A stretch of 64,000 nucleotides of DNA, taken from contig JAURNY010000017.1 of the NCBI GenBank assembly GCA_030829955.1, positions 1 through 64,000 of the forward strand, in the 5' to 3' direction. Within the stretch, counting starts at the first letter, position 1, and every line of letters starts with the position of its first letter. Below, one piece after another: positions 48,705 through 63,426 of this stretch. The translations under genes were made by a program, and so were the position numbers. This stretch comes from Gammaproteobacteria bacterium. Its GTDB lineage: Bacteria > Pseudomonadota > Gammaproteobacteria > Eutrophobiales > Eutrophobiaceae. The notes under the pieces were generated by a model, which saw nothing but the letters and a program-made list of their open reading frames with translations, was not told the DNA's origin and did not search any database.

Positions 48705-50380
48705 TATTCAAATTCCTCTGGAAAGTATTTTATCGCGCAACGTAATGGATTTGGGGCAGCCTGACCTAGTCCACAGATGGAAGCATCTTCCATTGTGCGA
48801 GCTAGTTCTTCTAGCAGATTAACATCCCATTCTTCTTTTTCCATTAGATTCACTGCTTTACTGGTGCCCACTCGACAAGGAGTGCATTGTCCGCATGATT
48901 CATGTTCAAAAAATCTCATGGCATTAATGGCTAATTCTTTTGCACTATCTTTTTTTGAAAAAACAATAATGGCCGCGGAACCGATAAAACAACCATATTT
49001 TTGCAATGTGTCAAAATCTAATGGTTCATCACCTAATGATGCGGGCAATATGCCGCCTGATGCACCACCTGGGAAATAGCCATAAAACTCATGGCCATCT
49101 TGCATGCCGTCACAATATTCATCGATAAGTTCTTTAATGCTGATGCCGGCCGGGGCAATGTGTACGCCCGGTTTTTTTACTCGACCGCTAACGGAAAATG
49201 AACGTAATCCTTTTCTTTCTCTTCTACCATTACTCGCAAACCAATCGGCACCATTATTAATGATGTCTCTAATCCAGTGCATGGTTTCCATATTTTGTTC
49301 TAGAGTAGGACGTCCAAATAATCCTATCTGCGCCACATAAGGTGGACGTAAACGAGGCATACCTCGTTTACCTTCTATAGATTCGATCATTGCAGATTCT
49401 TCTCCGCAAATATAAGCGCCAGCACCGCGACGCAAAGTAATGTTTGGTAAATCTGCCGGCGGATTATTTTTTAGCTTATCTAGCTCTGCTTCAAGCATCT
49501 TGCGGCAACCAGCATATTCATCTCTTAAATATATATAGATATCTTCTGCTTCTATTGCCCAATGAGCGATAAGTGTACCTTCAATAAAACGATGAGGATC
49601 TTTTTCCAGATAATATCGATCTTTAAACGTGCCTGGTTCACCTTCATCAATATTAATAGCAATTTTTCTAGGGGCTGCTTGTTCACTCAATATTCGCCAT
49701 TTACGTCCAGTAGGGAAACCTGCGCCACCAAGACCTCGCAGATTGGAGTCTTCAAGCAAACTAATAATATCTTCACGTTTATGTTTGCCAGAAATACAGT
49801 CTTTCCAGGTTTGATAACCACCATCTTTTATATAGTTATCCAAATCTACGTAGCCACCTGGAATATCATCAGATAACTCTTTCTTATCAAGCGCACTCAA
49901 TACACTTTCTTTTGTTGCTTTTTCAATTGGTTTTGTACCGCATACGGCAACTGGTGCTCCAGCGCATCTCCCAACGCAAGGAATCGGCTGTATACGAACT
50001 TTGCCGCTTTCAACAGCATTTTCTAAATCATGAATTAATTCATGAGCACCATAGAGTTCGCAACTCATGGATTCACAAACCCTTACAGTGACTGGTGGGG
50101 GAGGTGTTTCATTTTCTTTTGTAACATCAAAATGATGGTAAAAAGTTGCCGTTTCATACACTTCAGTCATCGGCAAATTCATAATGCTTGCAAGCGCTAG
50201 AATATGACGATTGGAAATATGGTGATACTTATCCTGAATCTTATGTAAATGCTCAATAAGCATATCTCGATTAAAAGACTCATCACCTATAAGATCCTGC
50301 ACTTGTGCAAGTGCTTTCTTATCCATGATGCGTCCTAGAATACGTCCTTTTTTACCCCTTGTTCTTTTCAAGGTCTTCAT
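48704..50380 (-). CDS. NAD-type formate dehydrogenase, beta subunit (NuoE-NuoF fusion)
   Basis: 558 aa. The N-terminal ~150 residues are NuoE-like, with [2Fe-2S] cysteines in CESMSCELYG and CVGRCAGAPV. The NuoF part binds FMN and NAD (RGLGGAGFPTGRKW, GEPGTFKDRYYLEKDPH cited as DEGEPGTFKDRYYLE) and ends with the [4Fe-4S] motif ESCGQCTPCRVGT. It passes electrons from the alpha subunit to NAD+. The NuoE-F fusion is the two-subunit FDH1 architecture. It follows fhcC by 2 bp, so formate release and formate oxidation are co-transcribed. Confidence 0.94.
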   Translation of the reverse strand: MKTLKRTRGKKGRILGRIMDKKALAQVQDLIGDESFNRDMLIEHLHKIQDKYHHISNRHILALASIMNLPMTEVYETATFYHHFDVTKENETPPPPVTVRVCESMSCELYGAHELIHDLENAVESGKVRIQPIPCVGRCAGAPVAVCGTKPIEKATKESVLSALDKKELSDDIPGGYVDLDNYIKDGGYQTWKDCISGKHKREDIISLLEDSNLRGLGGAGFPTGRKWRILSEQAAPRKIAINIDEGEPGTFKDRYYLEKDPHRFIEGTLIAHWAIEAEDIYIYLRDEYAGCRKMLEAELDKLKNNPPADLPNITLRRGAGAYICGEESAMIESIEGKRGMPRLRPPYVAQIGLFGRPTLEQNMETMHWIRDIINNGADWFASNGRRERKGLRSFSVSGRVKKPGVHIAPAGISIKELIDEYCDGMQDGHEFYGYFPGGASGGILPASLGDEPLDFDTLQKYGCFIGSAAIIVFSKKDSAKELAINAMRFFEHESCGQCTPCRVGTSKAVNLMEKEEWDVNLLEELARTMEDASICGLGQAAPNPLRCAIKYFPEEFE

Positions 50381-50382
50381 AT

Positions 50383-51213
50383 TTATCGTCTATCCATAGC
50401 TTGTAATATTAATAACTCACCTTTACCGTTACGAGACAAATCGCCTAAAAAACGATGAGTCAAGGGGCCAAATTTGTTAAGAACCGAAAAATCAGTTTTC
50501 ATCTCAGAGAGTTGCGTAAAAAATAACCTCAGGAATTGCATTTTTAGATTCCCACAGCTTTTAAAAGTTGCAGCAATATGTTTTGGTTTTTTCGCAAGAA
50601 TAATCGTGCCGCGTCGCATTGAATCACCTGGATATTTACCAACTTGACCTAAAATGACTACAGTTCCCGCATGCATTCTGCTACCACAATAATCACCGGC
50701 ATTACCATGTACAAAGATCATGCCTCTACGCATTTGATCGCCAACACGGTCTCCAGTATTGCCATGTACATGTATTAGACCACGATTCATCCCGAATGTA
50801 TCACCAGGTAAGCCTGCGCCTGTAAAGTTGCCAACATTACCTATGACTGTGATTTCACCACCAGTCATGGCAGTACCTACCCACGAACCGGCATTGCCTT
50901 TTACAGTGATAGTCCCTCTATTCATCGATTGACCAAGCAGATCACCAACATTACCTTTGATAGTGATAGAACCCTTTTTCATGTTCTTGCCTACGCAAAT
51001 TAATTTGTCACAGCTTTTTTCAATACTAATACATTCACCAGCCTTGCCACTAATTTCGAATAATTCACCTACATCTAGACTTTCTTTTCCATAAATCAGT
51101 TTGATTTTTTTGATTTTAGTTTGATTCAGGCCCGATAATTTTTCTGGGATAATTGGAGACATATCCAGAGTGAACTTTGGTTTTTCTTTTAATATAAAGG
51201 TCAAATCACTCAT
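50383..51213 (-). CDS. fhcC: Formyltransferase/hydrolase complex subunit C
   Basis: 276 aa. A right-handed beta-helix built of GxxGxxxG-type turns (GNVGDLLGQSMNRGTI, GNAGSWVGTAMTGGEI, GNTGDRVGDQMRRGMI), homologous to FwdC/FmdC and the glutamate synthase alpha C-domain. It is a structural part of the Fhc complex. The start overlaps the fhcD stop by 4 bp, in the order B-A-D-C. Confidence 0.93.
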   Translation of the reverse strand: MSDLTFILKEKPKFTLDMSPIIPEKLSGLNQTKIKKIKLIYGKESLDVGELFEISGKAGECISIEKSCDKLICVGKNMKKGSITIKGNVGDLLGQSMNRGTITVKGNAGSWVGTAMTGGEITVIGNVGNFTGAGLPGDTFGMNRGLIHVHGNTGDRVGDQMRRGMIFVHGNAGDYCGSRMHAGTVVILGQVGKYPGDSMRRGTIILAKKPKHIAATFKSCGNLKMQFLRLFFTQLSEMKTDFSVLNKFGPLTHRFLGDLSRNGKGELLILQAMDRR

Positions 51214-52106
51214 TTCAGAATCTCATGTAGATAAAATAAATGTGGACCGAGGTTGCCACCATAATTACCTGCACTAATGCGATAAATACCATTTTTAGGG
51301 CCATAAGAGCAGACTTCCCTGATACCAATACGCATAGCTTTAGCAACCGATGCTTCATCAAGGCCATCGATAACTATTTCTAAAACAGAACCAATTTCAG
51401 GGCCAAGCTCTGTCTTGACTACACCTTTTAGCGTAGGACAGAATGCTTCGTTAGTGGATGCGCTGAGAAAAGGATATTTAGAACCAACCTTCGAGCCTGA
51501 ACCGACGACACCGCCCGGAAATGCAGTGATAACACCTTCTACTTTCTTGATTGCATCTACGGCTTTTTCACATGCAGTCAAGCCCTGTCTGGCGGATTTT
51601 GCTAATATAAGAAAATTACCGCCACCTATAGCAGGCTGTACACCAGTAGTTTCCTCACAAATAAACTCACCATGCATAATTGGTATACGCCAAAAGCGTT
51701 TGCCATTAATGATTTTTGAAATTTGATAACCATCACCAAAGTAACGAAGACTTTTACCCATAGATACTTGAGTATCAGATTCCATACCAGAATAACAGGC
51801 GGTCGTTGCAGTGGTCATGACAGTTTGTCCGACTCGTATAGGCACCTGTTTCTCTAATTGTTTGGTCGACATGGCAAAAATCATTAAAGATAAGCCAGGA
51901 CGACCATCAGGTGTTTCGCTCGGTTTTAATTCTTTTTCAATATCTGCTTCGACACCGCAGGCAATAACTGATGTAGCAAAACCACGTAAGGCATTTGCTG
52001 CACGGTAAGCCCACTTTAAATTCATTGCGGTAACAATGATGCGTGTCGCTTTCATTGGAAAGGCTTCCGCAAAATTATTGTCAATTTGCACACCATTTAT
52101 TTTCAT
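51210..52106 (-). CDS. fhcD: Formylmethanofuran:H4MPT formyltransferase (Fhc set)
   Basis: 298 aa, the usual Ftr length. It transfers the formyl group between 5-formyl-H4MPT and the methanofuran cofactor. Recognised from the N-terminal FAEAFPMKATRIIVTA, the SLRYFGDGYQISK motif near 125, IGGGNFLILA near 165 and SAGNYGGNLGPH at the end. A paralogue (57738-58634) is in the second set. Follows fhcA by 4 bp. Confidence 0.95.
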   Translation of the reverse strand: MKINGVQIDNNFAEAFPMKATRIIVTAMNLKWAYRAANALRGFATSVIACGVEADIEKELKPSETPDGRPGLSLMIFAMSTKQLEKQVPIRVGQTVMTTATTACYSGMESDTQVSMGKSLRYFGDGYQISKIINGKRFWRIPIMHGEFICEETTGVQPAIGGGNFLILAKSARQGLTACEKAVDAIKKVEGVITAFPGGVVGSGSKVGSKYPFLSASTNEAFCPTLKGVVKTELGPEIGSVLEIVIDGLDEASVAKAMRIGIREVCSYGPKNGIYRISAGNYGGNLGPHLFYLHEILK

Positions 52107-52110
52107 GTCA

Positions 52111-53766
52111 TTACATACAAGGTTGAACTATTAATCTGCCATTGCCATGCTCAACAATTTCATCGTCATCGATTTTGAAGTTACCCATGCTCATGGTTTG
52201 ATAATCGTCAAAATAACGTTTAAGTGATCTTTCTATGGTTTTATCATAACCCGGCTTAACTATATGCGTTCCGCCATTGACTACTTTAACCACTTTGCCA
52301 TTACTAACAATTAAGTCGCCATCTTTAAATACATAATCAGGTTTGCTGAACATACGTTCCTTATCTTTATTATCGGTATAGACTGTTATATCAGCAATCG
52401 CGCCGGCACCTAGATGGCCACGATTTTTTAATCCAAGACTTTTTGCCGGAGCAGCACGCGTCATAATCGCTACTTCATATAGAGAGTATTCACGATCAAT
52501 ACTGCCTAATGTACTCATGGCGGCAGCATCTTTATTAATGGTCGACAACATGTCGTTACGGAAACTTTTATCCATTAATAAGCGTATTAAATGCGGATAC
52601 GATGTAAAAGGAGCCCCATTAGGATGATCTGTTGTTAGGAAAATTCGCCATGGATCATTCACCAGTAAAAATAACTCTAGACCGATAGCCCATTGCAATG
52701 CATTTACAAAATTTTTATCACGATATTTAAAAGGTACTATGCCGCATCCAGCATCACACTCTATATCCATTAACACCCATTTTTTTGGATGAGCATGCCA
52801 GTGTCCTGCATATTGATGTAAGGAGTCACCAGAAGCAGTTACCGTTTGATTAAATAATACCTGACCAACATCACAAGATATATTAGGATTGCTATTAATT
52901 GCTTCAGCAATCTCGGCCGCACCCGATGAGAACTTTCTGTCACCTTCAGCACCATAACTATGAAACTGAATATGTGTCATATGCATACGCATACCTTCAA
53001 CGGCTTTAATTGTCTCAAGAGTGGTATTAAGGTTTCCAGGCACACCCAGATTGCATCCATGTACATGCAAGGGATGAGGGACACCAAGCTCGGTAACCGC
53101 TCTAATCAGTGATAATAGTATTTGTCGCGGTGACACTCCGTAATATCTGTTTTGCTCATCTAAATCCAGTTCACGCTGATTAAACTTAAAAGCATTAATT
53201 CCGCCAGGATTTACAACTTTAATCCCCATTGATTTTGTCGCATTGATTATCCATGCAACATAATCACTAATCGCGGCCTGGTCTTTTTTTGATGACAACA
53301 TACGCAAAAAGAAATCGTCACTGCCCAGCATTGCATATGCACCTTTGTCTACCATAGGTGTATCGGCCATTTCCATATGAGATTGTCTTGCATTTGAAGG
53401 TACCATCGCCGGTTCAAAACAGGCGGTGTAACCCATTTCAGCGTAACGATAACCGGTTGTTAGTGTTGATGGTGCTGCGTATCCGCAACCTGAACGGGTT
53501 AGACTGGTTTTGGCGACCAGATCTTTTTCATGATCTTCCGGCAGCATCATTCTTGCTATATTGACTTTGCCACCACCAATATGTGTATGGATATCGATAG
53601 CACCAGACATGATAACTTTACCTTTTAAGTCATAGGTTTTACCTATCTTTGTGTTTATGCCGGGTTTACGAGTGATAACGCCATTGTGAATATAGATATC
53701 ACGTTGCTCACCATTAATGCCGTGAATAGGGTCATAGATTCGTCCATTTGCCAGTTTGATATACAT
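52111..53766 (-). CDS. fhcA: Formyltransferase/hydrolase complex subunit A (amidohydrolase)
   Basis: 551 aa, binuclear-zinc amidohydrolase that hydrolyses formyl-methanofuran to formate. The HxH metal motif is His60/His62 in AIDIHTHIGGG. The bridging Lys lies in IKVVNPGG, further His ligands in HPLHVHGCNLG and HMTHIQFHSYG, and the catalytic Asp in FLTTDHPNGAP. All are retained, so hydrolysis should work. It is encoded between fhcB and fhcD. Confidence 0.95.
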   Translation of the reverse strand: MYIKLANGRIYDPIHGINGEQRDIYIHNGVITRKPGINTKIGKTYDLKGKVIMSGAIDIHTHIGGGKVNIARMMLPEDHEKDLVAKTSLTRSGCGYAAPSTLTTGYRYAEMGYTACFEPAMVPSNARQSHMEMADTPMVDKGAYAMLGSDDFFLRMLSSKKDQAAISDYVAWIINATKSMGIKVVNPGGINAFKFNQRELDLDEQNRYYGVSPRQILLSLIRAVTELGVPHPLHVHGCNLGVPGNLNTTLETIKAVEGMRMHMTHIQFHSYGAEGDRKFSSGAAEIAEAINSNPNISCDVGQVLFNQTVTASGDSLHQYAGHWHAHPKKWVLMDIECDAGCGIVPFKYRDKNFVNALQWAIGLELFLLVNDPWRIFLTTDHPNGAPFTSYPHLIRLLMDKSFRNDMLSTINKDAAAMSTLGSIDREYSLYEVAIMTRAAPAKSLGLKNRGHLGAGAIADITVYTDNKDKERMFSKPDYVFKDGDLIVSNGKVVKVVNGGTHIVKPGYDKTIERSLKRYFDDYQTMSMGNFKIDDDEIVEHGNGRLIVQPCM

Positions 53767-53773
53767 AATTAAC

Positions 53774-55033
53774 TTACCTTAACCCTTCGATCATTTTCTC
53801 GATAACATTAGCAACACTAGGATAAGGCGATGTCCTTAATTTTTTTAACATTAGAGTAATAACAGTGTCGGTTCTATTTAATTGTCCGGCATGATCAATA
53901 CCTGGGGTCGAGACAGGAATGAAGACATCAGGTGTGTAACCGATTTTAGTACTAGGCATTGCTAAAACAATAGAGGGTATTAAAGCTTTTGGTGGTTTAT
54001 GTGTGTCAGAAAAACTTGATACCCATAATAAAGAATCAACTTCTTTATTCTTTAAGACATTATTAGTTGAATATCGGTTTGGTTCATAATCAGGGAAGCC
54101 CTTATTAAAATTTACCCTCAATGGATAGCCACTTTGCCATGCACAAAGACTATTTGCAGTTGTAGCACCATCATTTCCACCAAGAGTAAAACCGGAAAAT
54201 CGTGTTGAACGTGTCAGATATTTAGCTAATTCTGTCAGACTTTGGATTGTTAATTCAGCATGAGGAACATTTAATTCTGCAGGTGCCCAAACAATAACAC
54301 CATAAGATGCTTGTTTTATTTTATCAGCCAACTTTTCCAGTACACCGGCCTTGATACCAGCAACTTTTTCAACATCAATGGTGCTACCAGATATCAGGGC
54401 ATGAATAGTTGATATAATTTCATTAATGTCATCATTCTGACATTTCAATACAGTTGGTTTCTTGCCTTTAGGGCTAATGCCTGAACGTATATTCAGATTC
54501 TCACCGATATAAATAATGTCTTTTTCTTCATTTTTTAAACCAAACATGGATTTGTTGGGCCAAATGGCGCGCTCGAAGAAACGTGGATAATTCGTTGCAT
54601 CAGTTCCAACAAAGATAATCATATCTGCACGGTTTCTGATTTCAGTCATTGTTGTCATGATCCAGCCAAGATCCTGCATTACCAGAGTGTTTCGCATCAG
54701 GGCATTACCATGCATATGATCGATTACTGCCCCTTTTAAATCTGCCAGGTTCATGAGTTGCCTCATTCCGCTGGCATCAGTACCCAGGCCAGTTAATAGA
54801 GGAGTATATGAAGCTGATAATATTTCAATAGCATGCTTAATAGCTGCTTCGATACTGACTGCTTTATTTTTAATTTTGGGTTTAATATCAACAATAGGAG
54901 CTTCAAAACATGACGTCGCTTTTGCACATGCATTTTTTATAGTTTTTAAATGATGGCTATTAGAACTGATTACAAGATCATCACACAACAGTCCACAGAA
55001 TGGACAAGTAACTTCAGCAAATTCTTTCATCAT
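53774..55033 (-). CDS. fhcB: Formyltransferase/hydrolase complex subunit B, metal-ligand Cys lost
   Basis: 419 aa from the ATG at 55033; a TTG at 55075 would add 14 residues, and neither has a clear Shine-Dalgarno. It is homologous to FwdB. The N-terminal cysteines C10, C13, C17 and C36 (numbered from 55033) are present in CPFCGLLCDD and NACAKA. Where the archaeal dehydrogenase has SVC-H-GP, this protein reads DHMHGNA, with Met107 in place of the Mo/W ligand Cys and His108 retained. This fits the bacterial Fhc complex, in which B is not redox-active. First gene of the fhcB-A-D-C-fdhB-fdhA operon. Confidence 0.9.
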   Translation of the reverse strand: MMKEFAEVTCPFCGLLCDDLVISSNSHHLKTIKNACAKATSCFEAPIVDIKPKIKNKAVSIEAAIKHAIEILSASYTPLLTGLGTDASGMRQLMNLADLKGAVIDHMHGNALMRNTLVMQDLGWIMTTMTEIRNRADMIIFVGTDATNYPRFFERAIWPNKSMFGLKNEEKDIIYIGENLNIRSGISPKGKKPTVLKCQNDDINEIISTIHALISGSTIDVEKVAGIKAGVLEKLADKIKQASYGVIVWAPAELNVPHAELTIQSLTELAKYLTRSTRFSGFTLGGNDGATTANSLCAWQSGYPLRVNFNKGFPDYEPNRYSTNNVLKNKEVDSLLWVSSFSDTHKPPKALIPSIVLAMPSTKIGYTPDVFIPVSTPGIDHAGQLNRTDTVITLMLKKLRTSPYPSVANVIEKMIEGLR

Positions 55034-55183: not shown

Positions 55184-56569
55184 TTATTTACTATCTAAAT
55201 GCGATAGCATATGTTCTTTTCGAGTGAGTTTTTCCCTGGGTTTCCCTTTTGATTCTCCAGCTTTTTTTTCTGCCGCATCAATTTTTATCCAATCACTAAA
55301 ATATATAGGACGTATGTTTTTTGATTGTAGAATCTTATTAATTTGGTTATACCCAGTTCTTGATTTAATTGATTCAAATTTATTTAAGTCTTCCAGTAAA
55401 TTATTAACAGTCTCTACACTGCACGCACGATTTGTACCAATAATTCCACTTGGCCCTCGTTTTATCCAGCCGGCGGTATAAAGTTGGGTTACAAGTTGAC
55501 CATTATTCGTGACTCTTCCTGCATTATTTTCAATCGTGCCCCAATCATGATTAAAAGGTACACCTTGCATTGGCACCCCACGATAGCCAATACTGCTAAA
55601 TAAAATGCCAGTTTCTATTTCTAATATTTCGCCAGTTCCGCGAGCAGATTGATTAAAGGCATCGCCAAATAACTCATTCTTTTCAAATTTGATTGTTTCC
55701 AATCTGGTGTTGCCAACTAACGCGATAGGGCTCAATAAAAAGTGGAATTCACATCGACGAGATTTATCATCAACTGACTGATTTCTAGCAAAGTCACAAA
55801 ACAAATCATAAATTTTTTTATTACCGATATTTGATTTATTTGCGAGTTCAGTCTTGCTTTCCGGGTTTAGCACTAAATCCTGCTTATTGATAAAAGGCAG
55901 ACAATTATCAAGTTCTCCAAATTCACGTAATTCTTTAGGCGTAAATTTGGCTTGTGCCGGACCACGACGACCAATCACTTTGATTGTCTTAATCCTGCTT
56001 TCAGCCAAAACATCTAATGCATGCTGTGCAATATCGGTATATTTTAATTCATCTATGGTTTTGGAAAGAATGCGAGCAACATCAGCAGCAACATTGCCTT
56101 GCCCAACAATAACAGCTGTTTCTCCAGATAAATCAAATTCCCGATCACGATAGTCAGGGTGACCGTTATACCAGCCAACAAATTCAGTTGCTGTATAACA
56201 TCCATCCAGATTTTCGCCTGATAAATTAAGTTTGCGATCAGTTTCTGCCCCACACGTGATAATCACGGCATGATAAGCTTCCTTTAATTGTTCGATACTG
56301 ATATCTGTACCGATATTAACATTAGCAATTAATTGGAAGTTTTCATTCTCAGCTATTTTTTCATATAACTTGATTGCTTGTTTTAATTTCTGATGATCGG
56401 GTGCTACTCCCGAACGAACCAGGCCAAAGGGTGAGGGTAGGCGTTCATAAAGATCTGTCTTGGCAATAATATCTGATTTAAATAATGCTTCTGCCGCATA
56501 AAAACCACTTGGCCCACTACCAACAATGGCGACTAACAAAGGGTTATCTGGATTACCTAAACTTGCCAT
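55184..56569 (-). CDS. Ferredoxin:NADP+ reductase, adrenodoxin-reductase (FprA) type
   Basis: 461 aa from the ATG at 56569 (a TTG two codons earlier is rejected in favour of ATG). The FAD motif VGSGPSGFYAAE lies at about residues 16-27, the LPSPFGLVRSGVAPDH signature of the adrenodoxin reductase family follows, the NADP motif VGQGNVAADVAR is near 154, and the C-terminal GWIKRGPSGIIGTNR near 385. It exchanges electrons between ferredoxin and NADP(H). It is 9 bp from the ferredoxin gene and is the last gene of the fwd operon, indicating a dedicated electron outlet or inlet for the Fwd-like complex. Confidence 0.93.
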   Translation of the reverse strand: MASLGNPDNPLLVAIVGSGPSGFYAAEALFKSDIIAKTDLYERLPSPFGLVRSGVAPDHQKLKQAIKLYEKIAENENFQLIANVNIGTDISIEQLKEAYHAVIITCGAETDRKLNLSGENLDGCYTATEFVGWYNGHPDYRDREFDLSGETAVIVGQGNVAADVARILSKTIDELKYTDIAQHALDVLAESRIKTIKVIGRRGPAQAKFTPKELREFGELDNCLPFINKQDLVLNPESKTELANKSNIGNKKIYDLFCDFARNQSVDDKSRRCEFHFLLSPIALVGNTRLETIKFEKNELFGDAFNQSARGTGEILEIETGILFSSIGYRGVPMQGVPFNHDWGTIENNAGRVTNNGQLVTQLYTAGWIKRGPSGIIGTNRACSVETVNNLLEDLNKFESIKSRTGYNQINKILQSKNIRPIYFSDWIKIDAAEKKAGESKGKPREKLTRKEHMLSHLDSK

Positions 56570-56578
56570 ATTCAACTC

Positions 56579-56884
56579 TTAAAAGCCTAATTCGGATTTT
56601 CTATCATCGGCACCTGGTAATGGTTCAATCTTTTCTTCACAGACGGGTAAAGATGCTGACTTTTGAGCATTAATTTCTATCCAGTGTTCTTTATCTTCCG
56701 GTATATCATCACCCTCAAAAATAGCTTGAACCGGGCATTCTGGAATACATGCACTACAATCGATACAAGTATCAGGATCGATATACAACATATCATCATC
56801 ATAATGAAAACAGGCTACTGGGCAGACCGTTACACAGTCAGTGAATCGACACCCTTTACAATTATCCGTTACGATTGTTGTCAT
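56579..56884 (-). CDS. Ferredoxin, FdxA (7Fe/8Fe) type
   Basis: 101 aa from the ATG at 56884 with GGGAGGG upstream; an earlier in-frame ATG lacks family similarity. Nine Cys are present: C9, C12, C17, C21 and C25 in the first half (CKGCRFTDC...CPVAC) and C40, C43, C46 and C50 in CIDCSACIPEC. The pattern and the DDDMLYIDPDTC text match Azotobacter FdI-like [3Fe-4S][4Fe-4S] ferredoxins. Located between fwdC and the FNR gene, it can replace the polyferredoxin FwdF/FwdG that serves archaeal formylmethanofuran dehydrogenases. Confidence 0.93.
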   Translation of the reverse strand: MTTIVTDNCKGCRFTDCVTVCPVACFHYDDDMLYIDPDTCIDCSACIPECPVQAIFEGDDIPEDKEHWIEINAQKSASLPVCEEKIEPLPGADDRKSELGF

Positions 56885-56925: not shown

Positions 56926-57735
56926 TTAATCGGCATACAGCAAAACTTCTCCACGATTTAATTCAACGGCATCACCACACCATCGTTCAAAATGACCATT
57001 AATAATTTTGCTATCAATGTCATAACCTTTTTTAAGTAAATAATGCAAATACTGTTTGATAAAGACAGGACTATAATTGCAGGCAAGTGAGAAGGTGGGC
57101 AATATGCTTGTTTTGGTGAGGCTGATAATCGAGCCGCGTTTCATGCCAGCGCCAGTGCGGGTTCCCATTTCACCAATCACAATAATAGTTCCTGCCAGCA
57201 TGTTAACACCAGTAAAATCGCCGGATGTTCCGCCAACAACTATCAAACCTCGACGCATACAATGACCAGTTTCATTTTTTACATTGCCATGAATGAATAT
57301 TTCACCGCCTTGCATACCCACAGTACTACCTCGATAGCCACTTCCAACGAGATGACCAGCATTACCGCGGACTTCAATTTCACCACCTAACATTTCGGGG
57401 GCTAACCAATCTGAAGCATTACCCTCGATTAATATCTTGCCCCCGCTCATCGCGGCACCGGCATGTACACCAATGTCACCTTCAATCGTTATTAAGCCAA
57501 ACGACATGGTAGAACCTACATGTTTAACGTTTACAAGATCGCCGGCAACACGAATATCACCATCATTATTGCCGCTGCACTCAAAGAAATCTGCCAGATG
57601 CATTTCTCTGTTGCCATGAAAAACAATCAATCGATTAATATCATCAATAGACAAACCACGCATGCGATCAGGACAGATACATTCTGCTTCTAATGGTACT
57701 TCTGGTGTGGTGTGTAGTTTTAGATGCAAAGGCAT
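56926..57735 (-). CDS. fwdC: Formylmethanofuran dehydrogenase-like subunit C
   Basis: 269 aa beta-helix protein. The repeated turns GDIGVHAGAAMSGGKI, GNASDWLAPEMLGGEI, GNAGHLVGSGYRGSTV and GTSGDFTGVNMLAGTI match FwdC/FhcC. It is a clear paralogue of fhcC at 50383, but the N-terminal part (ECICPDRMRGLSIDDINRL, cited CICPDRMRGLSIDDIN) differs. Follows ftr by 2 bp. Confidence 0.92.
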   Translation of the reverse strand: MPLHLKLHTTPEVPLEAECICPDRMRGLSIDDINRLIVFHGNREMHLADFFECSGNNDGDIRVAGDLVNVKHVGSTMSFGLITIEGDIGVHAGAAMSGGKILIEGNASDWLAPEMLGGEIEVRGNAGHLVGSGYRGSTVGMQGGEIFIHGNVKNETGHCMRRGLIVVGGTSGDFTGVNMLAGTIIVIGEMGTRTGAGMKRGSIISLTKTSILPTFSLACNYSPVFIKQYLHYLLKKGYDIDSKIINGHFERWCGDAVELNRGEVLLYAD

Positions 57736-57737
57736 AA

Positions 57738-58634
57738 TCAGGCATCTCTTTTTAGTAGTTCATGTAGCTGAATCTGGTATTGACCTAAACCGCCACCATA
57801 ATTTCCAGCAGAGATTTTTTTAATATCCGGTTTCGCAGCTGCATGTATACCTACTAGCATTGCTTGCTCGACGGCTTCAAGTGTTAAACCATCGATAACA
57901 ATTTCCAGTACGGAATTAATCTGATCATTTAATGCAGTTTGTTTCGTAACTGCTTTTAAAATTGGACAATATGCATCATTAGTTGATGCTATAAGTGATT
58001 TGTAACGGGAACCGACCTTGCTACCACTACGTACGACGCCATTAGGAAAGGGTAGAATAATATCAGGTAATTCACGCATGGCTTTAACAGCTGCAGAGGC
58101 CGCACGAAGTGTGGCTTTTTGATTAGTGCCTAAAATTAACAGGTTGCCACCGCCCACTGCTTTTTGATATGTGAATGTATCATCAACCAGAAACTCACCA
58201 TCCATTACCGGAATACGCCACATGCGTTTATCGTTAAGTATCTTACTAATTTGAAAACCATCACCGAAATAACGAAGCTGACCGCCGACAATAACTGGCT
58301 CACCTTCATCAAGACCGTTATAACAAGCGGTTGATGGACAGGTCATGACACATTGCCCAACCCTTTCCAGTAACCGTTTACCAATAGTGTCTTTATCACT
58401 TGTAAATAACAGGATGCTTACTCCGGGACGCCCATCTGGAGACTCTTCAGCAGCAATAAGTTTTTCTATACCGGCCTCACATTTACAGCCAATGACCGAG
58501 GTTGCAAAACCAGTCACAGATTGTGCGGCTGCCATTGCCCATTGTTTATTTTCAGCCGTAATTATGAATCGACAACCATACATCTTGAAGGCTTCTGCAT
58601 AGGTATCGACTATTTCTGTAGATTTAATCTTCAC
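57738..58634 (-). CDS. ftr: Formylmethanofuran:H4MPT formyltransferase (Fwd set)
   Basis: 298 aa paralogue of fhcD. It shares the core QLRYFGDGFQISKILNDKRMW (cited LRYFGDGFQISK), VGGGNLLILG and the end SAGNYGGGLGQY. It supplies or removes formyl groups on the methanofuran of the second complex. The first 4 bp overlap the fwdA stop, which implies stoichiometric translation with fwdA. Confidence 0.94.
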   Translation of the reverse strand: MKIKSTEIVDTYAEAFKMYGCRFIITAENKQWAMAAAQSVTGFATSVIGCKCEAGIEKLIAAEESPDGRPGVSILLFTSDKDTIGKRLLERVGQCVMTCPSTACYNGLDEGEPVIVGGQLRYFGDGFQISKILNDKRMWRIPVMDGEFLVDDTFTYQKAVGGGNLLILGTNQKATLRAASAAVKAMRELPDIILPFPNGVVRSGSKVGSRYKSLIASTNDAYCPILKAVTKQTALNDQINSVLEIVIDGLTLEAVEQAMLVGIHAAAKPDIKKISAGNYGGGLGQYQIQLHELLKRDA

Positions 58635-60277
58635 GAATGGGTTTCTCCAAGCGGAATTACTTCATGATCATGCAAGTAATGATCATCGACGGCATAGTTG
58701 GCAAATTCAATTGAATAATAGTCTTCAAAGAATGGTTGTACGACTTCTTCAATTTTTTTATCGTACTCCGGTGCAATATGTAATAGGCGACCATTGAAAT
58801 CATTTCTGAATTCATGGTTTTCAATAATTAAATGACCGCTTTTAATGACATAACGCGGCGCATTAAACATCTCTTCCTTATCTTCCATGTCATCATAAAT
58901 TGTAATATCTGCATCAGCGCCAACACCAAGCTGTCCTTTATTATGCAGACCCAATGCTTTTGCAGGACCAGCGCGTGTAATGATCGCAATTTCATTCAGC
59001 GTATATTCGCGCTCTAGATCGGGTAGTATGGTATTGATTAAAGCTTTTTGATTAACCCGTTTCATTTCTTCACGACGAAAGCCTTTATCCATTAATAACT
59101 TGATAAGTTTGGGATAACTCTGAAACGAGCCGCCATTAGGATGATCTGTAGAAAGCATGACTCGCCAGGGATCTTTGGATAATAAAAACAACTCAAGCCC
59201 TATCGCCCATTGCAGGGTATGCATGTAAATATGTTCCTGATAAGTGAAGGGCACGATACCACAACCACTTTCACATTCAGTATCTGCATTAACCCACTTA
59301 CCTTTACTATGACCTTTTAATACATAAGCAAGCGGTGCATCGGCGGTCATGATGGTCGATTTGCCAAACATAACCTGGCCGACGTCACAGGTTATATTGG
59401 AATTATTATTAACATAGTCAATAATCTCGGTTGCTTTAGAAACCGGATTTTTACCTATTTCACCGCCATAACTATGAAACTGAATGTGAGCGATATGGGC
59501 ACGCAATCCGTTAGCCGTCTTCATGGTTTCCAGTGTAGTTATATAATTTCCACTGTGCCCAAGATTATTACAATGAATATGTGGCGGATGAGGAAAACCT
59601 CTTGCATTTACTGTTTTGACAAACGCTTCAATAATTTTTCTAGGTGTTAGTCCTTCATCATTGAGTTCATCTATATCTGATACATTAGAATTCTTTTTAC
59701 CTTTCCAGGGTTCATCACCACCCGGGTTCACAAGCTTGACTGTGTAAGCCTTGGTAGAGCTGATCCACCAGGCTACAGCCTGATCGAATTCTTCCATACG
59801 TTTTTCTTTTAATAGTTTTTGCAGAAAGATGTTATTAGCTAATAAAACATAAAAACCTTTATCAATAACAGGTGTATCGTGAAACTCTTCTAATGTATGT
59901 CGAGCGCCAATCGGCGTGACCGCCGCTTCCATGGCAGTGGTATAGCCTAATGTGGCATAACGATAACCGGTTGCAAATGTAGAAGGGACTGTGCCTCCTG
60001 TTCCAGAACGTGTAAAAGGTGTTGCGGGATGAACATCATGACGATGATCTTCTGGTTGCAGTTTTCTGGCAGCATTCACTTTTGGACCAGCGATATGACA
60101 ATGAATATCAACGCCGCCTGGCATAATAACCATGCCTTTAGCATCGATAACGGTAACATCATCACCAGCGCTGGCGACTATCTTGCCGTCTTGAATGCAG
60201 ATTTCCTTTATTTCACCATCAACATTATTAGTCGGGTCATAAACCCGTCCATTAATGATGCGCATAGAAGCTGCCAT
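58631..60277 (-). CDS. fwdA: Formylmethanofuran dehydrogenase-like subunit A (amidohydrolase)
   Basis: 548 aa from the ATG at 60277, preceded by AGGGG; a TTG one codon earlier is less likely and the ATG at 60265 (MRIING) is a further option. HxH is His59/His61 in GGVDIHCHIAG, the Lys site VKLVNPGG, His ligands in HPPHIHCNNLGHSG and HIAHIQFHSYG, and the catalytic Asp in LSTDHPNGGSF. In archaeal FwdABCDFG this subunit joins formate, made from CO2 in FwdB, to methanofuran through an internal tunnel. All zinc-site residues are kept here. A 171-bp gap separates it from fwdB. Confidence 0.94.
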   Translation of the reverse strand: MAASMRIINGRVYDPTNNVDGEIKEICIQDGKIVASAGDDVTVIDAKGMVIMPGGVDIHCHIAGPKVNAARKLQPEDHRHDVHPATPFTRSGTGGTVPSTFATGYRYATLGYTTAMEAAVTPIGARHTLEEFHDTPVIDKGFYVLLANNIFLQKLLKEKRMEEFDQAVAWWISSTKAYTVKLVNPGGDEPWKGKKNSNVSDIDELNDEGLTPRKIIEAFVKTVNARGFPHPPHIHCNNLGHSGNYITTLETMKTANGLRAHIAHIQFHSYGGEIGKNPVSKATEIIDYVNNNSNITCDVGQVMFGKSTIMTADAPLAYVLKGHSKGKWVNADTECESGCGIVPFTYQEHIYMHTLQWAIGLELFLLSKDPWRVMLSTDHPNGGSFQSYPKLIKLLMDKGFRREEMKRVNQKALINTILPDLEREYTLNEIAIITRAGPAKALGLHNKGQLGVGADADITIYDDMEDKEEMFNAPRYVIKSGHLIIENHEFRNDFNGRLLHIAPEYDKKIEEVVQPFFEDYYSIEFANYAVDDHYLHDHEVIPLGETHS

Positions 60278-60448
60278 CAAATACCCCTAAAAACTATTGT
60301 TATTTTTTTGAGTAATTTTACGACAACTGTTTATTGAACTTTTCTAACCAAAAAAAGTATTTTTTGTTTAGTTTTTAATTCTCGTAAATGGTCTCATTAT
60401 AATTATTAATTAATACAAAAAATTATCACAAATACGTTATGAATAAAA
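60278..60448 (-). other. AT-rich gap inside the fwd operon
   Basis: The other junctions of this operon are 42 bp or less, but fwdB and fwdA are 171 bp apart. I find no ORF and no clear hairpin terminator, so an internal promoter or regulatory RNA segment is possible. Confidence 0.4.
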
Positions 60449-61810
60449 TCAAAGTGGTGCAGCCACCTTGGCTTCTCCAATAGCGCCGTTGGCACTATGT
60501 CTTGCGAGCATAAGTTCATGCACGCGTTTTCTAATACCAGTTAATATTTTTTCATCATCCGGGAATGGCGATTCAAACGCCGGACGCAAGGTGATTGGTA
60601 CATCATCCATACGATATACGGTACCTGATGTGTTGATGCCATAAGTCGATGTACGGAATGCAACATGAGCATCTTTACTGGTATCAGTTTGTTTGGTGTC
60701 TAATACAACTATCGGAATGCTTTTTAAGTGTTCAATTGCTCTCTTTGGAAAATTAGATCCGGGATCGCTTGCGATAATAAGTGCAGCATCGGCGTGACCA
60801 TTTGATAAAGTGTCAACTGTTGTAAATTCGCCAGGGTTAAAACGTGGAAAACCACGGCTAAAATTAACACCGAATGGATAACCGGTTTGCCATGAAACAA
60901 CATTGTCTGCACCAGTTACATTGCCATGACCACGCACAGGCTTAGCAACAAAGTGGGTGAATTCATTTAAATCAGTTGCAAGCGCAAGCAAGGCACCTGA
61001 ATTAAAATGTCTGCCACGCGTCATGGTTAAACCCATTCCAAAAAACAATACACCAAAGCGGCAGTTTTTCATTTTTTCAGTAAGGTCTTGCAAGACTTCT
61101 AATGAAACACCCGTTTCTTCTTCGATATCGGCAGATATGGTTTTCCCTTTTACTAGCGCACGTAATGCCCAGAGTATTTCAAAATCCTTTCCTGGTTTGG
61201 GTTGAATAAAGATATCGGCAACGGGTGCGCTTTTTGTTTTGCGTACGTCTACCAGCACAACGGTTCTATCTTTTTTTCCACCGGGGATGAACATGCCTTT
61301 GGGAGTGACAGCATAACGACCAAAATGTCTTGGGTGTGACTCCGCGGGATTTCCGCCCCAATAGATAACTAGATCAGCTCGGTTTTTAACTTCACCTAGC
61401 GTACTTGTGCTTTCACCAACTCCCTGAAAGGCCAGACCAGTAGGGCCATGACAAACTGAGGTGGTTGTATCAATATTACCTCGAATAATATCAGTGATTG
61501 CAACGGCTTGACGTTGGGCTTCACAAGTTGTGTCGCTTAATCCATAAGTGATTGGGAATTTTGCATTGACTAATGTTTGCGCTGCTTCTTCTATGGCATC
61601 TTCAATAGACACCTCTTTGCCATCGATCATCGCCGCAGGAGCATTCTCTTCAATAGTATGTTCTGAAAACCACGCGCGACCCAATATACAGGCATTTTTT
61701 GCCTTAACAATTTTTTTCTCTTCAACATCAACATGCAAGTGCATATCATCACAGACGCATCCGCAAAAAGTACATGTTGCGTTTTCGACTATCTTAATAT
61801 TCTCACTCAT
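60449..61810 (-). CDS. fwdB: Formylmethanofuran dehydrogenase-like subunit B with intact Mo/W site
   Basis: 453 aa. The [4Fe-4S] ligands are C13, C16 and C20 in CTFCGCVCDD plus C41 in NACILGRAW. Cys120-His121 in TSVCHGPTG correspond to the tungsten-ligand Cys118 and its neighbouring His of archaeal FwdB. Downstream, PVRGHGNVTGADN, SWQTGYPFGVNFSRGFPRFN and ALIIASDPGSNFP follow the archaeal dehydrogenase sequence closely (from memory of the family). These are exactly the positions that the hydrolase-type FhcB in the same window has lost. I infer a redox-active subunit that interconverts formate/formyl carbon and CO2. Confidence 0.9.
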   Translation of the reverse strand: MSENIKIVENATCTFCGCVCDDMHLHVDVEEKKIVKAKNACILGRAWFSEHTIEENAPAAMIDGKEVSIEDAIEEAAQTLVNAKFPITYGLSDTTCEAQRQAVAITDIIRGNIDTTTSVCHGPTGLAFQGVGESTSTLGEVKNRADLVIYWGGNPAESHPRHFGRYAVTPKGMFIPGGKKDRTVVLVDVRKTKSAPVADIFIQPKPGKDFEILWALRALVKGKTISADIEEETGVSLEVLQDLTEKMKNCRFGVLFFGMGLTMTRGRHFNSGALLALATDLNEFTHFVAKPVRGHGNVTGADNVVSWQTGYPFGVNFSRGFPRFNPGEFTTVDTLSNGHADAALIIASDPGSNFPKRAIEHLKSIPIVVLDTKQTDTSKDAHVAFRTSTYGINTSGTVYRMDDVPITLRPAFESPFPDDEKILTGIRKRVHELMLARHSANGAIGEAKVAAPL

Positions 61811-61836
61811 TTTTAAAATTCTATTAGTTGTATGAC

Positions 61837-62172
61837 TTAAAGCTTTTCAATTTCGATTTCCATATGTTTTGAAATAGGCATACCGCTTCCAGCTGTATCA
61901 CTTTCCATTAATTGACTGGATGGCGGTCCATAAGGAATAAACGCCATGCCAGAAGGTAAGTCTCCTGGCTTTTTAGCTATACATTTAACTAGGGCTTCAC
62001 CAGTCGCATTTTTTAACCTAACGCTATCACCATCACTTAATTTCAACTTTTGCATATCATCCGGATTCATTTCCAGCGTAGATGTTGTTTCAATGTACTC
62101 CTCTTTGAGTTTGCCATGATTCAACGACGTGCCTTGTTTTGCAGAACGGCCGGGGATTAATATCATTTTCAT
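61837..62172 (-). CDS. fwdD: Formylmethanofuran dehydrogenase-like subunit D (molybdopterin-dinucleotide-binding)
   Basis: 111 aa. The protein begins with LIPGRSAKQGTSLNHGK and EEYIETTSTLEMNPDDM, has LSDGDSVRLKNATGEA in the middle and FIPYGPPSSQL near residue 78, matching FwdD/FmdD, which completes the pterin-cofactor pocket over FwdB. The hydrolase-type fhc set in the window has no such gene. It is the first gene of the operon fwdD-B-A-ftr-C-fdx-fnr. The Shine-Dalgarno is weak. Confidence 0.92.
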   Translation of the reverse strand: MKMILIPGRSAKQGTSLNHGKLKEEYIETTSTLEMNPDDMQKLKLSDGDSVRLKNATGEALVKCIAKKPGDLPSGMAFIPYGPPSSQLMESDTAGSGMPISKHMEIEIEKL

Positions 62173-62382: not shown

Positions 62383-63426
62383 ATGCAAGATTCAAAATAC
62401 AAATCAGATTTAAGTTTCGTACGTATTTCTACGCCGGCACGTCTGCATCTTGGTTTTCTTGATATCAATGGTGGTCTGGATAGAAAGTTTGGCAGTCTTG
62501 GTATGGCAATCAACCAGATTGAAACATCATTAATTGCAACTTATGCCGATGATGTGGAAATTTACGGACCATGCGATAAAAGAGCTTCTGATTACGCAGA
62601 ACAAGTTTTATCTCATTATGGAATTAACGGCGGAATACGTATGAATATTGTCTCTACTATCCCGAAACATGCTGGTTTGGGCTCAGGCACACAACTTTCA
62701 CTGGCTGTAGCAACGGCAATATCCACACTTTATGATTTAAATGAATTACCTGAAGCATTGGCTGCAACGTTACATCGTGGCGCTCGATCAGGTATTGGTA
62801 TAGGCACATTTCAATATGGTGGTTTTATCGTTGATGGTGGCCGTGGTCCTCATACTCAGGTTCCTCCGGTTATCAGTCACATATCTTTTCCTGAACATTG
62901 GCGAATAATTTTGGTTTTTGATGAAGGTAGCGAAGGGATTAATGGCGTACCTGAGAGACGCGCATTTAATACCTTACCGCCGATGGACGAAAAAGATTCA
63001 GGTTTATTATGTCGTTTGACTATGATGAAGATATTGCCTGCCTTGGCCGAAGAAGACTGTGAATGTTTTGGTGAGGCGATTACGCAAATGCAAAATATTG
63101 TGGGCGATTATTTTGCTCAGGCTCAGGGTGGCCGATTTAGCTCACCTTTTATGCATAAAATTTTAAATGATTTGCAAGATTTGGGCGCTACGGGTTCTGG
63201 GCAGAGCTCCTGGGGACCAACCGGGTTTGCTTTTTTTCGTGACGAAACTGCTGCATTTTATGCATTAAAAAAAATTAGAAAAGTATGGAATCATGAACGA
63301 AGGATTCGATTTATGATGGTTGCTCCGCAAAATGAAAAAGCATCAATTACACAGTCTGAATCAGTTGACGAACTGAATCAGCCAACAATCCAGAATCAAC
63401 TTAAGAATATTAATATAACTTCATGA
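62383..63426 (+). CDS. mptG: Beta-ribofuranosylaminobenzene 5'-phosphate synthase (H4MPT biosynthesis)
   Basis: 347 aa, GHMP-kinase-like fold. It condenses 4-hydroxy- or 4-aminobenzoate with PRPP in the first committed step of methanopterin synthesis. Recognised from ISTPARLHLGFLDINGG at the N-terminus, STIPKHAGLGSGTQLSLAVA near residue 90 (GHMP glycine motif) and GIGTFQYGGFIVDGG. It proves that the C1 carrier here is an H4MPT-type pterin. Divergent from fwdD across a 210-bp region with two palindromes. Confidence 0.95.
   Translation: MQDSKYKSDLSFVRISTPARLHLGFLDINGGLDRKFGSLGMAINQIETSLIATYADDVEIYGPCDKRASDYAEQVLSHYGINGGIRMNIVSTIPKHAGLGSGTQLSLAVATAISTLYDLNELPEALAATLHRGARSGIGIGTFQYGGFIVDGGRGPHTQVPPVISHISFPEHWRIILVFDEGSEGINGVPERRAFNTLPPMDEKDSGLLCRLTMMKILPALAEEDCECFGEAITQMQNIVGDYFAQAQGGRFSSPFMHKILNDLQDLGATGSGQSSWGPTGFAFFRDETAAFYALKKIRKVWNHERRIRFMMVAPQNEKASITQSESVDELNQPTIQNQLKNINITS

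Follow-up and report, generated by a model that had tools for sequence, protein, structure and literature searches.

The gene set at positions 56926 to 62172 on the minus strand of the window (the whole 64,000-nt stretch of gammaproteobacterial DNA analyzed here) probably encodes a redox-active Mo/W-bis-pterin formylmethanofuran (formyl-MFR) dehydrogenase of an aerobic-type methylotroph, coupled to NADP+ and oxidizing formyl-MFR to CO2. This conclusion rests on comparative evidence only, without biochemical, expression, or metal data. A bolder reading, which we consider more likely than not, is that aerobic methylotrophs and methanotrophs hold an NADP+-coupled Fwd that takes C1 units to CO2 without free formate, beside or in place of Fhc and formate dehydrogenase, and that the NADPH link was gained at least twice, once through a ferredoxin and an FprA-type reductase and once through a FwdD-CysJ fusion.

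The original prediction placed separate FwdD, FwdA, Ftr, and FwdC genes in one operon with FwdB, and this held: all five open reading frames are present and matched by family models, with intergenic spacings of 26, 168, -4, and 2 nt in the order fwdD, fwdB, fwdA, ftr, fwdC (Table 1). The extent given for the operon was incomplete. Genes for a ferredoxin (Fdx) and an FprA/adrenodoxin-reductase-type NADPH:ferredoxin reductase (FNR) lie closely downstream of fwdC on the same strand, followed by a full second set, fhcB-A-D-C (50383 to 55033), and a two-subunit NAD-type formate dehydrogenase (45873 to 50380), all of which had been missed. Past the window, beyond the beta-RFAP synthase gene, homologues of mch, mptN, fae, mfnD, mfnF, and mfnE were seen on a longer version of the locus (L093). 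The gap between fwdB and fwdA contains a conserved non-coding element; of 12 genomes searched, 5 have it, each in a single copy. An Rfam search of the region gave no match.

Table 1. Features of the fwd-fhc locus, with predicted functions; positions are those of the window.
Feature	Coordinates	Strand	Evidence
Beta-RFAP synthase, first step of H4MPT synthesis, divergent from fwdD	62383..63426	+	TIGR00144 160 bits
FwdD, molybdopterin-dinucleotide binding subunit	61837..62172	-	NF042908 77 bits; PF01568 over cut-off
FwdB, Mo/W-bis-pterin catalytic subunit	60449..61810	-	TIGR03129 509 bits; archaeal structure alignment; residue counts; tree; fold search
Conserved non-coding stem-structured element, fwdB-fwdA gap	60309..60395	-	Motif scan; fold z -2.7; covariance model
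FwdA, metallo-amidohydrolase subunit	58631..60277	-	TIGR03121 694 bits; residue conservation
Ftr, formyl-MFR:H4MPT formyltransferase of Fwd set	57738..58634	-	NF002554 432 bits
FwdC	56926..57735	-	TIGR03122 257 bits
Seven-iron [3Fe-4S][4Fe-4S] ferredoxin, Azotobacter FdI type	56579..56884	-	NF045490 114 bits; PDB FdI E 2e-29
FprA/adrenodoxin-reductase-type NADPH:ferredoxin oxidoreductase	55184..56569	-	1lqt FprA E 3e-97; 1cjc AdR E 5e-93
FhcB, non-redox scaffold	53774..55033	-	TIGR03129 304 bits (below cut-off); alignment columns
FhcA, formyl-MFR hydrolase subunit	52111..53766	-	TIGR03121 775 bits
FhcD, second formyltransferase	51210..52106	-	NF002554 440 bits
FhcC	50383..51213	-	TIGR03122 257 bits
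NAD-dependent formate dehydrogenase beta, NuoE+NuoF fusion, MeFDH1-like	48704..50380	-	TIGR01959, TIGR01958
NAD-dependent formate dehydrogenase alpha	45873..48704	-	TIGR01591 748 bits, over cut-off

The fwd set keeps every catalytic residue of archaeal Fwd that we tested. Direct reading of FwdB confirmed C13/C16/C20/C41, C120-H121 within SVCHGP, and the core running from RGHGNVTGADN to SRGFPRFNPGE, all of which the original prediction had called intact and archaeal-like. Alignment to archaeal structures places the four N-terminal cysteines, C120-H121, and R293 on the [4Fe-4S] cysteines, Cys118-His119, and Arg288 of M. wolfeii FwdB, so that the equation of C120 with the archaeal Mo/W ligand also held. 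Identity to solved archaeal FwdB is 38 to 45% over ~430 residues, with E values down to 1e-116, and the match is therefore far above chance. In alignment columns, Cys120, His121, Arg293, and His295 are conserved in 93/93 bacterial and 5/5 archaeal FwdB proteins and in 0/28 FhcB proteins; the metal-ligand Cys column reads X in one of the five archaeal sequences, which we take to be, probably, Sec. The four cluster cysteines are found in 92 of the 93 bacterial proteins, and the remaining row is gapped there. In the window FhcB, the Fe-S cysteines are retained, and A, L, G, and N stand at the positions of Cys120, His121, Arg293, and His295. With respect to the TIGR03129 cut-off of 327.8 bits, FwdB scores above and FhcB below. 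FwdD falls under the strict NF042908 cut-off of 175, and the Fhc set has no FwdD counterpart at all.

In the tree, bacterial FwdB, archaeal FwdB, and FhcB formed three groups with SH-aLRT support of 98 to 100, bacterial FwdB being on the archaeal side, although only five archaeal sequences were included. This tree and the 93/93 conservation led us to reject the idea that FwdB is merely an FhcB that carries its cysteine by chance. The original prediction would have been refuted by placement of FwdB inside hydrolase-type FhcB with a non-conserved pterin pocket; FwdB instead falls outside FhcB with its active-site residues conserved, and the ligand loss was found in the separate FhcB 5 kb downstream. 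For fwdB, dN/dS values of 0.012 to 0.020 (unsaturated pairs) indicate strong purifying selection, and across the same 27 genomes the mean identity is 81% for FwdB versus 49% for FhcB. A fold search with the FwdB model retrieved archaeal FwdB at E 1e-41 versus 4e-19 for FhcB; the mean pLDDT of the model was 73.7, and its active-site loops were of low confidence. By subunits, residues, and tree, the fwd set is thus likely to be of the Mo/W-dependent formylmethanofuran dehydrogenase type rather than the Fhc type, since it keeps the metal ligand, includes FwdD, and lies outside FhcB; metal content and activity are inferred from comparison alone. The second set meets the Fhc description in all three respects, with a B subunit that lacks the metal ligand, no FwdD, and membership in the FhcB clade.

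FwdA retains H60, H62, K182 (the carboxylysine position), H234/H236, H265, and D379, numbered from the TTG-initiated 549-aa open reading frame. Equivalents of the M. wolfeii Zn/carboxylysine site residues H57, H59, K178, H229, H231, H271, and D385 were present in 69/69 FwdA proteins. The ATG at 60277 is a more likely start for FwdA than the listed TTG.

The ferredoxin has its ATG at codon 8 of the open reading frame, with GGAGG ahead of it. Its match to FdI structures spans residues 11 to 102 and meets the [3Fe-4S][4Fe-4S] cysteine pattern; the DUF3470 tail match is weak, and the NF045490 score is under the 135-bit cut-off. The FNR is homologous to FprA over its full length and keeps the NADP 2'-phosphate motif RRGPAQAKFTPKELRE (RRGP...FT.KELRE type). 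Among 52 fully covered fwd loci, Fdx is adjacent in 43, FNR in 43, and both in 42. The FNR gene follows fwd in 44 loci and precedes it in 6, and the linkage, in both orders, spans Gammaproteobacteria, Betaproteobacteria, and Gemmatimonadota. Some fwd loci (in Chloroflexota, Planctomycetota, and Rhodospirillaceae) had no Fdx or FNR that we could find nearby. We considered and rejected the possibility that Fdx and FNR are Fhc partners: fhc is missing from 22 of the 42 fwd loci with both genes and from four genomes altogether, and an Fhc-only locus (L100) has neither Fdx nor FNR. The association with Fwd is nevertheless not perfect: in G026, a genome that has Fhc but no Fwd, an FNR gene adjoins fhc, and genes of a type I restriction system lie upstream. 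A profile search limited to the operon and its immediate flanks revealed no FwdF or FwdG polyferredoxins; we do not treat these subunits as obligatory, since F and G vary among complexes.

In five loci from Methylothermaceae and Methylococcaceae metagenome-assembled genomes (MAGs) (L073, L074, L077, L083, and L086), FwdD and a CysJ-like NADPH diflavin reductase form a fusion protein, of which residues 195 to 730 match E. coli CysJ at 469 bits. The Fdx/FNR pair was not found at these loci. The fusions in L073, L074, L083, and L086 were accepted because FwdD and reductase sequences share one open frame; that in L077 is truncated by the contig end. A single-sequence AlphaFold model of the L083 fusion (pLDDT 41) was too poor to use. 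Long FwdA, FwdC, and FwdD reading frames in GC-rich loci, such as L066, were rejected as fusions; they resemble open frames overrunning the gene. Judged from the fusion and the missing pair, FwdD-CysJ likely represents an independent route to an NADP+ acceptor.

In the pathway that we propose, methanol or formaldehyde carbon would join H4MPT via Fae and be oxidized to formyl-H4MPT, steps for which the genes are shown, and Ftr would transfer the formyl group to methanofuran. By inference from archaeal structures and the conserved residues, FwdA would hydrolyze formyl-MFR and hand formate internally to FwdBD, where it would be oxidized to CO2 at the Cys120-ligated metal, the electrons exiting via the FwdB [4Fe-4S] cluster. 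With no FwdF/FwdG in the operon, these electrons may pass to the seven-iron ferredoxin and from there, by way of the FprA-type reductase, to NADP+; gene linkage, the phyletic pattern, and the fusion are the grounds for this inference, and transfer from FwdB to the ferredoxin has not been shown. The adjacent Fhc set would release free formate from the same formyl pool for the NAD-type formate dehydrogenase. With both systems side by side, the cell could therefore choose between CO2 plus NADPH and formate, for assimilation or NADH. As to direction, the CO2/formyl-MFR potential is -530 mV (PMC11656701), and the textbook potential of NADP+ is -320 mV; oxidation across this gap (-0.53 V versus -0.32 V) would yield a calculated -40 kJ/mol or so. 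Gene context favors oxidation to CO2 with NADPH formation because the sole associated acceptor chain ends at NADP+. The claim that formyl-MFR is oxidized directly to CO2, or CO2 reduced, without free formate is thus supported, with oxidation favored and the activity itself inferred.

Other explanations must be weighed. Fwd could be redox active yet deliver its electrons to some other acceptor, Fdx and FNR being co-transcribed for Fe-S assembly, a monooxygenase, or low-potential biosynthesis. Ferredoxins and FNRs are general electron carriers, FNR adjoins fhc without fwd in G026, and some bacterial fwd loci lack both genes. We nonetheless regard this as unlikely, given linkage in both orders over three taxa and the attachment of an unrelated NADPH reductase to FwdD where the pair was not found.

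Still less probable is a reductive Fwd that draws on NADPH or another donor to fix CO2 as formyl-MFR for assimilation. Archaeal Fwd is reversible, and neither RuBisCO nor hexulose-phosphate synthase was found over cut-off in the window genome; however, NADPH cannot drive a -530 mV reduction without energy input, the locus is not linked to genes for a ferredoxin reducer of the bifurcating or ion-driven kind, and genes of an oxidative methanol/Fae/Mch pathway lie in and beside the window. It is similarly improbable that the fwd set is another formate-releasing hydrolase, with an active FwdA and FwdBD as a scaffold or inactive relic. Fhc complexes with a dead FhcB are a known bacterial form, one of them 5 kb away, but the catalytic residues are kept in 93/93 proteins, dN/dS is about 0.015, FwdD is retained, and the dead FhcB is diverging far faster.

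The NADP+-coupled oxidative Fwd that we prefer resembles several known systems. M. wolfeii FwdABCDFG (5t5i) shares the FwdA, B, C, and D homologues, the Cys/His/Arg site, the [4Fe-4S] cysteines, and the Zn/carboxylysine site, with 43% identity in FwdB, whereas the window operon, in a methylotrophic bacterial setting, has Ftr, a seven-iron ferredoxin, and an NADPH reductase instead of FwdF/FwdG. In Ca. Ethanoperedens thermophilum, an F420-coupled Fwd (8rja; PMC11493965) likewise connects formyl-MFR oxidation to a hydride carrier of the nicotinamide-like kind, not to free ferredoxin, but its acceptor is F420 via a bound F420 reductase, while the putative acceptor here is NADP+, via separate Fdx/FNR or, in relatives, a fused CysJ-like module. 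The Hakuba Actinobacteria fwdDBA-ftr-fwdC (PMC7325909) has the same gene order, keeps Cys118 and the N-terminal [4Fe-4S] site, and lacks FwdFG. Those organisms use the Wood-Ljungdahl pathway, and the authors did not find the genes for H4MPT-derivative synthesis that they sought; the relevant sections report no NADPH module, and the window operon, in contrast, is flanked by H4MPT/MFR synthesis genes. FhcABCD of Methylorubrum extorquens (6s6y) has the same role in H4MPT-linked C1 oxidation, and the window fhcBADC is of this kind: unlike the fwd set, both have an FhcB without the metal ligand, no FwdD, and free formate as product. FprA/adrenodoxin reductase and the CysJ of assimilatory sulfite reductase are NADP(H)-specific flavoproteins; in the open-access literature searched, we found no description of either type as a formyl-MFR dehydrogenase partner, nor of NADPH coupling, the FwdD-CysJ fusion, or the Fwd/Fhc tandem. 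Bacterial FwdB itself has already been published (2020, 2023); the original prediction had left open how widely such an operon is described.

The view that Fhc alone is the norm in methylotrophs is in line with Chistoserdova 2016 and held in part; it is too strong for the family of the window organism, because FwdB occurs in 25/37 of its genomes. In four of the family's genomes (G015, G017, G027, and G034), Fwd and Fae are present and FhcA/FhcB were not found. A published MAG of a USC-gamma atmospheric methane oxidizer (L044) is among the Fwd carriers. A PmoA (PF02461) search of the window genome gave no match, but its controls were also silent. An earlier paper (PMC5020050) states that Proteobacteria and Planctomycetes lack fwdD; the window FwdD corrects this. 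The FwdD-CysJ fusion is a compact candidate for an NADPH-linked CO2/formyl enzyme, its activity being inferred. Textbook H4MPT-linked methylotrophy ends at formate, released by a hydrolase with a dead metal site. If our reading is correct, methanogen-type CO2 chemistry would reach into aerobic-type bacteria, the USC-gamma organism among them, and the pathway would gain, through a live and conserved dehydrogenase, a direct outlet to NADPH and CO2 that avoids the formate node at which assimilation and dissimilation split.

The formylmethanofuran dehydrogenase (Fwd) genes open a near-continuous run of 13 genes on the minus strand of the window: fwdD, fwdB, fwdA, ftr, fwdC, a seven-iron ferredoxin (Fdx), an NADPH:ferredoxin reductase (FNR), fhcB, fhcA, fhcD, fhcC, and a two-subunit NAD-type formate dehydrogenase. 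Successive intergenic gaps, taken from the listed ORF ends, are 26, 168, -4, 2, 20, 3, 108, 7, 4, -4, 2, and -1 nt. Gene content and order are shown. The original prediction of a redox-active bacterial Fwd operon described its five genes correctly; the ferredoxin, reductase, fhcBADC, and formate dehydrogenase genes had been overlooked. Past the window edge, beta-RFAP synthase is followed by mch, an MptN-like ligase gene, fae, and MfnD/F/E-like genes, so that the fwd run has genes for its coenzymes and for the upstream pathway next to it.

Features of the window and their positions
Feature	Position	Strand	Remark
13-gene run	62172 down to 45873	-	
fhcB	53774-55033	-	
Element in fwdB-fwdA gap	60309-60395	-	conserved, non-coding; fold z -2.7
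beta-RFAP synthase	begins 210 bp from fwd run	+	opposite strand
PQQ alcohol dehydrogenase	41530-43467		methanol/ethanol family

In the window FwdB, C13, C16, C20, and C41 align with the [4Fe-4S] cysteines of the M. wolfeii enzyme, and C120-H121 and R293/H295 align with its Cys118-His119 and Arg288/His290. The latter four residues are kept in 93 of 93 bacterial FwdB proteins collected and gone in 28 of 28 FhcB proteins; the window FhcB, 5 kb downstream, has A, L, G, and N at these positions. FwdD, whose archaeal counterpart completes the pterin site, is also encoded in the fwd set, and the FwdA metal site, carboxylysine position included, is conserved in 69 of 69. FwdB is under strong constraint, as judged by dN/dS (0.012 to 0.020, unsaturated pairs) and by mean identity to the window (81%, versus 49% for FhcB in the same 27 genomes). 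FhcB, archaeal FwdB, and bacterial FwdB form separate groups in the tree, with bacterial FwdB on the archaeal side (SH-aLRT 98 to 100), but no donor can be named, since only five archaeal sequences were sampled. The predicted fold matches archaeal FwdB (E 1e-41) far better than FhcB (4e-19), the active-site loops being poorly modeled. While residue conservation and phylogenetic grouping are shown, metal binding and catalysis are only inferred. The metal, likewise inferred, could conceivably be W instead of Mo, because the window formate dehydrogenase is similar to MeFDH1, a W enzyme, and an aerobic methylotroph has a maturation path for W (PMC13197769). Separately, the FhcB proteins retain the N-terminal [4Fe-4S] cysteines in 25 to 28 of 28 cases, having lost the metal ligand and pterin-pocket residues, and are apparently less eroded than the shorter M. 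extorquens FhcB.

Archaeal complexes use FwdF/FwdG, whereas the window operon has neither. Instead, two genes come after fwdC, one for a seven-iron ferredoxin of the FdI type and one for a homologue of FprA/adrenodoxin reductase (FNR) carrying RRGPAQAKFTPKELRE, the NADP 2'-phosphate-binding motif of that family. Of the 52 loci whose flanks were long enough to judge, 42 have both Fdx and FNR adjoining fwd, and fhc is missing from the locus in 22 of these 42. The FNR gene sits downstream of fwdB at 44 loci and upstream of it at 6; the link therefore outlasts rearrangement. By record title, this linkage spans Gammaproteobacteria, Betaproteobacteria, and Gemmatimonadota; among the loci examined, Fdx/FNR were not found near fwd in several non-gamma cases. 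Another exception, genome G026, has FNR beside fhc and no fwd: FNR immediately precedes fhcB, and type I restriction-modification genes lie upstream in the place expected for fwd, as if the fwd module had been replaced. A second fdsA-fdsB-FNR copy at a contig end (G034:C24, in a 1.5 Mb genome without Fhc) may be a duplication or an assembly overlap.

In five Methylothermaceae/Methylococcaceae MAG loci (L073, L074, L077, L083, and L086), FwdD makes up the N-terminal domain of a larger protein whose remainder is a flavodoxin, FAD, and NAD(P) module, complete in four of the five; in L083, 536 residues of this module align with E. coli CysJ (469 bits). Neither ferredoxin nor FNR turned up next to fwd at any of the five, three of these loci being short. 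Linkage and fusion are shown, and the association of one enzyme with two NADPH reductases of unrelated type argues for NADP+ as acceptor; in the window operon, by inference, electrons would pass from Fwd via ferredoxin and FNR to NADP+. The CO2/formyl-methanofuran potential is about -530 mV (PMC11656701). That of NADP+/NADPH is -320 mV. Oxidation is therefore downhill by ~40 kJ/mol and reduction by NADPH uphill, and the thermodynamics agree with NADP+ as acceptor, the reaction direction in the cell being inferred.

The nearest functional analogue of this proposed NADPH-linked Fwd is that of ethane-oxidizing archaea, wired to F420 reduction (PMC11493965). An fwdDBA-ftr-fwdC cluster with Cys118 was described in a Wood-Ljungdahl actinobacterium in 2020 (PMC7325909), and a survey from 2023 put the number of bacterial FwdB proteins at 149 and inferred transfer from Archaea (PMC10100899). 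The open-access literature searched, subscription papers being outside its scope, contained no description of NADPH coupling, of Fwd and Fhc in tandem, or of the FwdD-CysJ fusion. Chistoserdova 2016 (PMC5020050) stated that neither Proteobacteria nor Planctomycetes have fwdD, which the loci compared contradict; in Planctomycetota loci L078, L089, L091, and L092, too, FwdD immediately precedes a Cys-type FwdB.

In the fwdB-fwdA gap element, 10 nearly fixed base pairs enclose a variable branched middle. It occurs as a single copy, at this site only, in 5 of 12 genomes searched and has no match in Rfam. As its base pairs show no covariation, the structure is unproven; the element might set FwdB:FwdA stoichiometry or act as a regulatory RNA.

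FwdB occurs in 14 of 369 genomes spread across class Gammaproteobacteria. Public MAGs with FwdB, named as in their records (some unreliable), include USC-gamma, 'Porisulfidus', uncultured 'Thiothrix', Methylothermaceae, Anaerolineales, Gemmatimonadota, and Planctomycetota. The published atmospheric-methane-oxidizing USCg_Taylor MAG has fwdD-fwdB with the Cys intact; the text of a 2026 USC-gamma MAG paper contained no match for fwd, fhc, or methanofuran. A same-genus genome encodes a third, orphan FwdA/FhcA-like protein (G001:C1:90026-91624, 606 bits), without B, C, or D subunit matches in the surrounding 10 kb.

In the window's genome, the sole Mpt_N (MtdA/MtdB) gene found adjoins an fchA-like gene, RuBisCO was not found, and no hexulose-phosphate synthase scored over the cut-off, making a serine-type assimilation route likely. 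Within the family, FwdB (matches >490 bits) is present in 25 of 37 genomes, 21 of which also have FhcB. In the other four (G015, G017, G027, and G034), which are 90 to 98% complete and include one with a contig of 3.57 Mb, FwdB, FwdA, and Fae are all present, and searches for FhcA/FhcB gave no match. This presence of Fwd without Fhc is shown and argues that Fwd can stand in for Fhc; a division of labor between the two is inferred.
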